This document shows, piece after piece, positions 42,951-44,863 of a DNA stretch of 64,000 bases. The stretch lies in the NCBI RefSeq assembly GCF_010692725.1, contig NZ_JAAFZB010000093.1:310001-374000 (forward strand), given 5' to 3'. Each line of letters starts with the position of its first letter. The first letter of the stretch is position 1. The notes beneath the pieces were generated by a model, which saw only the letters and a program-made list of their open reading frames with translations, searched no databases and was not told the origin of the DNA. Origin of the DNA: Flavihumibacter soli. Lineage in GTDB: Bacteria > Bacteroidota > Bacteroidia > Sphingobacteriales > Sphingobacteriaceae. Both the position numbers and the translations under genes were made by a program.

Positions 42951-43283
42951 CTACATCGAGAGTTGCTTTACCTTGTTCATCATTTGAACACCGTGCACCA
43001 GGGATGATCCGCCGCGTATAGCAGCTGCTACATGGATGGCTTCCATCATTTGCTCTTCATTCGATCCTTTTTCAAGGCAGTCCGTTGCGTAGGCATCGAT
43101 ACAATAGGGACATTGGACTGTATGAGCAACTGCCAGAGCGATTAAAGATTTTTCGCGGGCAGTTAATGCGCCTTCTTCAAACACTTCTCCATAATAGTCG
43201 AAGAATTTTTTGGCAAGATTGGGCTGGTATTCTGAGATCGTAGCAAATTTCTTAAGATCTTCCGGGTCATAGTAGGTTTTCAT
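42951..43283 (-). CDS. Arsenosugar-associated peroxidase-like (AhpD-fold) protein
   Basis: A 110-residue AhpD/CMD-fold protein with the catalytic CPYC pair (Cys 58, 61), as in TIGR04030, a family typically neighbouring arsS. The rest is the helical CMD fold (ALTAREKSLIALAVAHTVQCPYCIDAY). It probably handles peroxides or thiol redox in the pathway. It sits 40 bases upstream of arsS on the same strand, the first gene of the cluster. Confidence 0.88.
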   Translation of the reverse strand: MKTYYDPEDLKKFATISEYQPNLAKKFFDYYGEVFEEGALTAREKSLIALAVAHTVQCPYCIDAYATDCLEKGSNEEQMMEAIHVAAAIRGGSSLVHGVQMMNKVKQLSM

Positions 43284-43360: not shown

Positions 43361-43467
43361 TTATCGCATCTTAATTGATAAGTATGGATTATCTATAACT
43401 GGCTGATAATCATAAAATATCCATGTTTTAATAGATAATGAGGTGTTATCTATTATTTAGTTGATAA
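43361..43467. promoter_or_regulatory. GATAA/TTATC operator-like array
   Basis: Seven GATAA or TTATC pentamers occur in 107 bases, at 43361, 43377, 43389, 43405, 43434, 43446 and 43463. Two pairs form inverted repeats: GATTATC (43387-43393) with GATAATC (43405-43411), and TAATAGATAA (43429-43438) with TTATCTATTA (43446-43455), a perfect 10-bp repeat with a seven-base spacer. The array lies between the arsenosugar genes (leftward) and the cyclase-like/HTH gene (rightward) and ends about 40 bases before that gene's ATG. It fits autoregulation by its HTH domain. Confidence 0.6.
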
Positions 43468-43505
43468 TACTTCATAATCTAGTTTTAAATAGATATTTTA
43501 GACTT

Positions 43506-44135
43506 ATGAATTATGATGCGCTGGTCTTAACGGCAGATATTCGTGGATTTACGAAACTTCTTCCTGAAAAAAGAGAAGAATTGATACTATCAATCAGTGA
43601 TGTACTGCATTCCTGGGTGGACCCGGAATTTGCCCGCATATTTCGCGGTGATAGTATTCAAATGTTATTCCGGAATCCAAAGGAATGCCTGAACCGTGCA
43701 ATTCAATTAAGGTGTTGGTTGAAAAAGAGTGTTCTCGCAGAAGATTTTATGCTCGATGCCAGGCTTGCTTTTGGTATAGGAAAGATTGACTACTATGGCG
43801 ATACTGTGCTTGACTCCGATGGAGAGGCTTTCCATTTGTCAGGCAGAGCATTTGATATGCTTGAGCCAGACGAGTTCATGCGGATAGCTACATCTGATGA
43901 AGCTTTAAATGAACAGTTAAATATTATTGTCCGTTGGGTTGATATTCAGATTAGAGACTGGACCCGAGGGCAGGCCGAAGTGATCTACCTATTGCTGGAG
44001 AATAAAACTCAACAGGAAATGGCTGATGAGCTAGGAGTAGTGCAATCGGCAATAAATAACAGGCTAAAGTTAGCCAGATGGAAAGATGTTGAAAGAACAA
44101 TTGACTATATCTCCTCCCTGTTAAAACATTCATGA
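43506..44135 (+). CDS. SatD-like protein: cyclase-like domain plus HTH
   Basis: A 209-residue protein. The N-terminal half resembles a class III nucleotidyl cyclase fold: LTADIRGFTKLL matches the DIxGFT metal-binding signature, RIFRGDSIQMLF fits the next conserved strand, and GIGKIDYYGDTVLDSDGEAFHLSGRA fits the later one. The C-terminus has a helix-turn-helix (TQQEMADELGVVQSAINNRL). The ATG at 43506 is preferred over a TTG 45 bases upstream. It overlaps the DUF3307 membrane gene by four bases (ATGA). This pairing with DUF3307 is known for SatD-family proteins; whether the fold still has cyclase activity is unknown. Confidence 0.75.
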   Translation: MNYDALVLTADIRGFTKLLPEKREELILSISDVLHSWVDPEFARIFRGDSIQMLFRNPKECLNRAIQLRCWLKKSVLAEDFMLDARLAFGIGKIDYYGDTVLDSDGEAFHLSGRAFDMLEPDEFMRIATSDEALNEQLNIIVRWVDIQIRDWTRGQAEVIYLLLENKTQQEMADELGVVQSAINNRLKLARWKDVERTIDYISSLLKHS

Positions 44136-44863
44136 GTATGATAGAGGAAACAAGTATTCTGCTTAAACTATTAATTGCCCATTTTTTAACAGATTTTGTC
44201 TTACAGCCCACTCATTGGATTACTGACCGAAAGACCAAAAAATGGCGTTCAGGAAAACTTTATTATCATGCACTGGTAACCGCTGCAGTTGCTTATGTTC
44301 TTACTGGTTTATGGAATTTATGGTGGCTGCCTATATATGTCTTCACTACTCATTTCCTCATCGATCTCTGGAAGTCATATCGACCGGCAAAAATTAGTTA
44401 CTTCTTAATTGATCAGCTGCTTCACCTTATAACAATTGTTGTTTTATGGCTGATCATAGTTGACAGGTGGGGTGCGACAGGAGTACTTCTCTCCCGACTG
44501 TACAGCGATCCTAAAGTTCTGGTTGTTTCGGCAGCTTACATTTTTATTACCTGGCCGATGGGCATAATGGTGGGCCTGGCAACTGAGAGATGGCGTGAAG
44601 AAGCGGGTGCAAACGCTGAAGGCCTGGCCAGGGCAGGCATGTGGATCGGATTTTTCGAGCGCTTTTTAATATTAACGTTTATCCTGATTGATCAATATAC
44701 CGCTGTTGGTTTACTCATTGCTGCAAAGTCAATTTTGAGATTTAACGATAAGGAAGGGAACACTCAAAAGAAGACAGAATATGTATTGATCGGAACGCTG
44801 ATGAGCTTTGCAATATCTGTTTTGCTGGGGTGGATAATCAGCACCGTACTTCAGGCTACTTAA
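44132..44863 (+). CDS. DUF3307 membrane protein
   Basis: A 243-residue integral membrane protein with about five or six helices. The N-terminal segment LLIAHFLTDFVLQPTHWI and the HFLIDLWKSYRP motif fit DUF3307, a family of unknown function with conserved His/Asp residues in the membrane. It is translationally coupled to the cyclase-like/HTH gene and converges with the aldehyde dehydrogenase, which it overlaps by eight bases. Confidence 0.85.
   Translation: MSMIEETSILLKLLIAHFLTDFVLQPTHWITDRKTKKWRSGKLYYHALVTAAVAYVLTGLWNLWWLPIYVFTTHFLIDLWKSYRPAKISYFLIDQLLHLITIVVLWLIIVDRWGATGVLLSRLYSDPKVLVVSAAYIFITWPMGIMVGLATERWREEAGANAEGLARAGMWIGFFERFLILTFILIDQYTAVGLLIAAKSILRFNDKEGNTQKKTEYVLIGTLMSFAISVLLGWIISTVLQAT

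Follow-up and report, generated by a model that had tools for sequence, protein, structure and literature searches.

In Flavihumibacter soli, a SatD-like protein that joins a cyclase-fold domain to a C-terminal helix-turn-helix (HTH) very probably binds a row of five palindromes in front of its own gene, because sites and recognition helix change together across homologues. The gene lies in the stretch of 64,000 nucleotides that we analysed (hereafter the window), and it overlaps a gene for a DUF3307 membrane protein. The reading that we favour with fair confidence is that SatD is a one-component autorepressor acting on its own array, with the cyclase-fold domain as its sensor and DUF3307 as its output.

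The operator array and the recognition helix

The sequence-only reading had counted seven GATAA/TTATC sites in 107 bases, and this count is exact. The seven words (43361-43467) lie within an AT-rich intergenic stretch 5' of two overlapping plus-strand genes; at least four such words per 107 bp occur nowhere else in the window outside this cluster, and when the local sequence was shuffled 5000 times with its dinucleotides preserved, the count never reached seven. The 10-bp inverted repeat with a seven-base spacer described there (43429-43455) is likewise perfect (TAATAGATAA at 43429-43438, TGAGGTG, TTATCTATTA at 43446-43455). However, the reading had missed that all seven words are half-sites of ~20-bp palindromes, the first four of five. 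These palindromes of 19-20 bp, to which no strand is assigned, start at 43362, 43390, 43418, 43447, and 43476 and form an array (43362-43495) with spacings of 28, 28, 29, and 29 bp. Operator O1 (TATCGCATCTTAATTGATA, 43362-43380, 19 bp) is the most degenerate and is followed by O2 (TATCTATAACTGGCTGATA, 43390-43408, 19 bp), O3 (TATCCATGTTTTAATAGATA, 43418-43437), O4 (TATCTATTATTTAGTTGATA, 43447-43466), and O5 (AATCTAGTTTTAAATAGATA, 43476-43495), with the ATG of the satD-like gene 10 bp past the end of O5. The strandless inverted repeat consists of the right half of O3 and the left half of O4.

We compared this array with those of homologues from the family, in which 161 of 301 genomes have a satD-like gene (one copy each), and from named genomes outside it. 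An array was found de novo 5' of 177 of the 201 homologues, Gammaproteobacteria and archaea included; several of the 24 loci without one have satD directly after another gene, such as an ABC-F gene. What is conserved is the layout TAT-xyz-N8-z'y'x'-ATA, repeated with a period of 28 or 29 bp and with more than 20 different xyz triplets. Half-sites differ by lineage, with TATCTA in the group of the window and TATCGG, TATAAG, TATAAC, TATAGA, TATCTG, TATGAC, and others elsewhere, and more divergent forms are found in Proteus (TGTTACC), Prevotella-like genomes (AACAACC), and a haloarchaeal plasmid (TACAACC). Tandem palindromes also occur on three plasmids, one each from a haloarchaeon, Vibrio, and Enterobacter. 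The earlier expectation of a GATAA array upstream of orthologues therefore holds for the geometry but not for the word: GATAA is absent from most of their arrays and is ruled out as a conserved motif. Its absence would have been a misleading argument against self-binding, because the half-site diverges with the recognition helix while the geometry stays fixed.

This regularity emerges even when no motif is specified. Across 156 non-redundant upstream regions, direct repeats of exact 6-mers peak at 28 bp (930 vs 9 in shuffles) and 29 bp (575 vs 13) and recur at 56-58 and 84-87 bp, and inverted 6-mer copies peak at 14 bp (320 vs 10 in shuffles) and appear again at 42 and 70 bp. The de novo fits gave 380 successive operator spacings of 28 or 29 bp. 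The last operator ends a median of 22 bp before the ATG, often only 7-10 bp. A TAnnTTTG box is present in the last 70 bp of 65 loci and overlaps an operator in 47 of them; the idea that the last operator incorporates a promoter -7 box was nevertheless set aside as weakly supported, TTTG enrichment there being 12% vs 5%.

The recognition helix region of the window protein (residues 180-189, QSAINNRLKL, 44043-44072, plus strand) contains three positions, 181, 182, and 185, that covary with operator bases. Among ~200 protein columns, and with descent partly corrected, residue 185 shows the highest association with the triplet, 182 the second, and 181 the fourth. Their base partners come close to one residue per base, 181 pairing mainly with x, 182 with y, and 185 with z: S182 occurs with G and A or Q182 with A, while E or Q185 occurs with G, K or R185 with C, and N185 with A. 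Between pairs of proteins 45-60% identical outside the HTH, these three residues differ in 11% of cases when the operator is the same and in 69% when it is different. One locus, L122, appears to be a natural switch in which helix and operator changed together, since it combines QPLVSGALKRA with TATCTG whereas its siblings, 82-85% identical, have QS[SL]VSEALKRA and TATCGG. In leave-clade-out prediction, accuracy was 0.66 for base y (0.51 by majority, 0.34 by nearest relative) and 0.62 for base z (0.43 and 0.18, respectively); base x was predicted no better than by majority at the strict cut. When disjoint nearest pairs are used, certain columns outside the helix score as high as those within it. 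The highest-ranking columns nevertheless match the expectation for a recognition helix, and SatD resembles an autoregulatory HTH transcription factor in that its promoter carries sites matched to this helix by sequence comparison. Array geometry and covariation thus both support the initial proposal that the protein has its own operators. The more than 20 helix/operator pairs constitute a natural library that reads almost as a residue-to-base code.

In the genomes tested, the operators are almost confined to satD. In several TATCGG-type genomes all exact operators are at satD, and so are nearly all tandem operator pairs in the 301 genomes, the exceptions being three prophages and one site in genus g16. 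A regulon beyond satD was rejected, the pattern showing no excess in the genome of the window (210 vs 251 in the control). In g16 (L222-L225), a conserved 72-aa gene next to trpS has an operator-like pair at its 3' end, which may be another target of SatD or else a hairpin.

The satD-DUF3307 gene pair

The satD-like gene (43506-44135, plus strand, 209 aa) most likely starts at ATG 43506; TTG 43461 is also open but lies inside the array. Its product has a cyclase-fold domain (approximately residues 1-130) and a C-terminal HTH (approximately 154-208), a fusion suggested beforehand and borne out by an AlphaFold monomer model (78-sequence alignment, pLDDT 96.8) and by fold and profile matches; weak HTH matches include HTH_ParB. 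Against Pfam SatD (PF16264) it scores 23.7 bits (E 4e-5), under the curated cut-off of 29, and we call it SatD-like because 33 of 46 relatives match this family (E up to 0.1, best 3.4e-12). Length and the HTH end are further likenesses to SatD, a family named after the SAT operon of Streptococcus and tied in the literature searched to acid tolerance only. Contig scans with the single protein as query and with alignment A1 gave no matches.

The best PDB match of the N-terminal part is Ma1120 (Foldseek E 1.2e-4, probability 1.00, TM 0.59 by target length), also found weakly by sequence profile. Class III cyclases rank first, followed by GGDEF domains, with cUMP and uridylate cyclases among the matches. 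The ADIRGFT and FRGDS motifs noted previously are both present and contain the two metal-aspartate positions aligned to Ma1120, D11 (DIRGFT, codon 43536-43538, plus strand) and D49 (FRGDS, codon 43650-43652, plus strand), each invariant in 201 of 201 sequences. The protein therefore has the fold and both metal aspartates in common with class III nucleotidyl cyclases (Ma1120, Rv1264) and also with GGDEF domains. In contrast with these cyclases, it is fused to a short HTH and lacks a conserved transition-state Asn/Arg pair (V/I/R/H/Q in column 110 and R/E/A/K/P in column 114, positions assigned by motif without structure superposition). The DUF2652 proteins of Bacteroidetes are likewise uncharacterised, cyclase-like, and bacterial, but they form a different family, single-domain as described (PMC4886424), and a Pfam scan gave no DUF2652 match.

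The downstream gene (44132-44863, plus strand, 243 aa) encodes, as anticipated, a DUF3307 membrane protein (PF11750, 93 bits vs a cut-off of 23) and overlaps satD by ATGA (44132-44135). It is predicted to be all-helical, and its predicted fold has no match in the PDB, so that structure gives no function. Its invariant residues are H17, D21, H74, D78, D94, Q95, H98, E176, R177, K199, R203, and E216, and the His, Asp, Glu, and Lys among them suggest ion transport or a metal-dependent enzyme. The coupling proposed for the two genes is nearly obligate: DUF3307 is directly 3' of satD in 130 of 130 loci and in 79 of 80 of another set, the exception being at a contig end. Of 198 genomes sampled evenly across the phylum, 48 carry DUF3307, and satD adjoins it in 45; of the other three, one is a relic, and two, which belong to a single genus (L238, L239), lack satD but retain an intact DUF3307. 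Conversely, satD copies without a DUF3307 partner (G316, L241) no longer have their motifs.

The genes flanking the pair stay the same within a genus but vary from one genus to another. In the window, the divergent neighbour (42951-43283) is an arsenosugar-biosynthesis-associated peroxidase-like gene (TIGR04169, 1.2e-58), which is retained next to satD in L001-L003. At 48 loci between L042 and L200 (mostly genus g14) and at L227, satD is separated by its array from a divergent ligase-associated DNA exonuclease gene, so that SatD may act on a DNA-repair operon as well.

Proposed mechanism and competing explanations

We propose that C-terminal HTH dimers of SatD would bind the palindrome row 5' of satD-DUF3307. 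Half-sites ~14 bp apart and alternately inverted, with a period of 28-29 bp, would accommodate a lattice of neighbouring dimers, whose regularity suggests cooperative binding. The bound array would cover the promoter and repress the two-gene operon. The N-terminal cyclase-fold domain is the most likely sensor, in which the two invariant aspartates may hold a nucleotide or metal-nucleotide, and this ligand would loosen or tighten the lattice and so set the amount of DUF3307. The comparative evidence is strong for array geometry, half-site/helix co-evolution, gene coupling, and the near single target; we infer repression rather than activation, nucleotide sensing, and the role of DUF3307 as output. 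Of the nucleotide-responsive switch first suggested, the fused cyclase-like fold, the operators, and the coupled membrane partner are thereby supported, whereas nucleotide binding or synthesis is a putative property. A literature search that covered a minority of subscription papers returned no account of SatD DNA binding, the operator array, the DUF3307 link, or phage-borne operators. satD-DUF3307 is a very widespread, unstudied pair, present in bacteria, archaea, and plasmids, for which a concrete testable mechanism can now be proposed.

It is extremely improbable that the array serves another factor, such as a nucleoid or partition-like protein, or is due to chance. Its AT-richness and the HTH_ParB match are compatible with this explanation, but the geometry is far above shuffles, the array follows satD across phyla, and the half-site tracks SatD's own recognition helix. 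Another option, to which we give little credit, is that SatD works as a catalytically active nucleotidyl cyclase and that DUF3307 is gated by its product in a Pycsar-like manner, the HTH being secondary. The class III fold, the two metal aspartates that never vary, the cUMP and uridylate cyclases among the fold matches, and a membrane partner within the same operon agree with such a system, whereas the variable columns 110 and 114, the lack of a cyclic-nucleotide domain in DUF3307 in a Pfam scan, and the lack of any match to PADLOC models (Pycsar and other anti-phage systems) speak against it.

The PADLOC result also weighs against an alternative that we rate as somewhat less improbable but still unlikely, namely that SatD is antitoxin-like and keeps a harmful DUF3307 off, so that loss or titration of SatD would release this effector in defence or plasmid addiction. 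Transposon sequencing shows a gene annotated satD in Streptococcus pyogenes to be essential, although ~29% of genomes lack it (PMC11323703), as expected for the guard of a harmful partner; this is suggestive only. The loss of satD motifs where DUF3307 is missing, the presence of operators in phages, and small ColE1-type plasmids with satD-DUF3307 as their main cargo point in the same direction. However, L238 and L239 keep DUF3307 intact without satD, two counterexamples to a strict toxin-antitoxin logic in which the effector is never kept without its guard, and neighbours fixed within genera, as at the 48 loci beside the exonuclease gene, are unlike those of fast-moving defence genes.

Operators in phages, prophages, and plasmids

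The three prophage pairs, all in relatives, match the SatD type of their hosts. One (L228:9872-9919, G217) is in a Mu-like prophage, in which PHROGs matches identify a transposase, a tail sheath, and a tape measure; this pair closely precedes a small ORF (~59 codons, by eye resembling an HTH protein) that separates early from late genes. Another (L221:2524-2571, G012) is in a prophage with a terminase, and the pair of the G187 prophage (L226:2596-2643) has an exact counterpart in a 57-kb IMG/VR contig (L250). Across IMG/VR, exact operator pairs of the TATCGG type at 28 bp occur in 15 contigs and those of the TATAAG type at 29 bp in 65, and reversed-pattern controls gave 0 and 0. When the linker was left free from 0 to 30, all 21 TATCGG contigs had 8 or 9, and TATAAG gave 6 contigs at 8, 65 at 9, and a separate group at other values. 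In total, 92 IMG/VR contigs have the 28/29-bp geometry (stretches L247-L326, L333, L341-L346, and L349-L353). Phage contigs of ~29 kb (most of L327-L340) with two TATAAG palindromes at 35-43 bp were set aside as probably unrelated.

Neither satD nor DUF3307 was found in the stretches of these 92 contigs (long contigs being covered in part), and given their absence from 108 stretches, we rejected the idea that the phage arrays are satD loci. DUF3307 was not found in INPHARED phages and occurs in one IMG/VR contig. RNA hairpins or terminators were also rejected, given that spacer bases rarely pair (1.5 of 4) and that TATCGG linkers take only two of the possible lengths. In the first 79 viral contigs the pair is intergenic in 74, is present in two or three copies, and often has no gene start near. 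TATCGG and TATAAG pairs occur together in two contigs, L249 and L275 (in L275 the TATCGG pair has one mismatch), and in L284 a TATAAG pair adjoins a TATTAC pair.

Because many phages carry operator pairs without the gene, they would seem to exploit SatD binding or be exposed to it, which points to an unrecognised phage-host interaction. The sites may be decoys or borrowed operators, or may reflect host-imposed binding. A more specific version, conceivable but on the doubtful side, is that satD-DUF3307 is phage-responsive and that the pairs of Bacteroidota phages are decoys titrating the host repressor while the phage genome multiplies, some of them for two SatD specificities (L249, L275, L284). 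Phage CI and restriction controller proteins are autoregulated repressors with co-evolving operators, and some phages use host LexA sites. Like SatD, the former are self-targeted HTH proteins whose operator and recognition helix diverge together, and the latter likewise are phage genomes bearing the sites of a host regulator. SatD differs from all of these in its cyclase-fold domain and its 28/29-bp tandem lattice kept across bacteria and archaea, and phage SatD sites, unlike phage-borne LexA sites, are often away from gene starts.

The ColE1-type plasmids with satD-DUF3307 as main cargo (L230, L231) measure 3.8-4.4 kb and come from E. coli and Klebsiella; these small enterobacterial plasmids offer a compact laboratory model of the pair.
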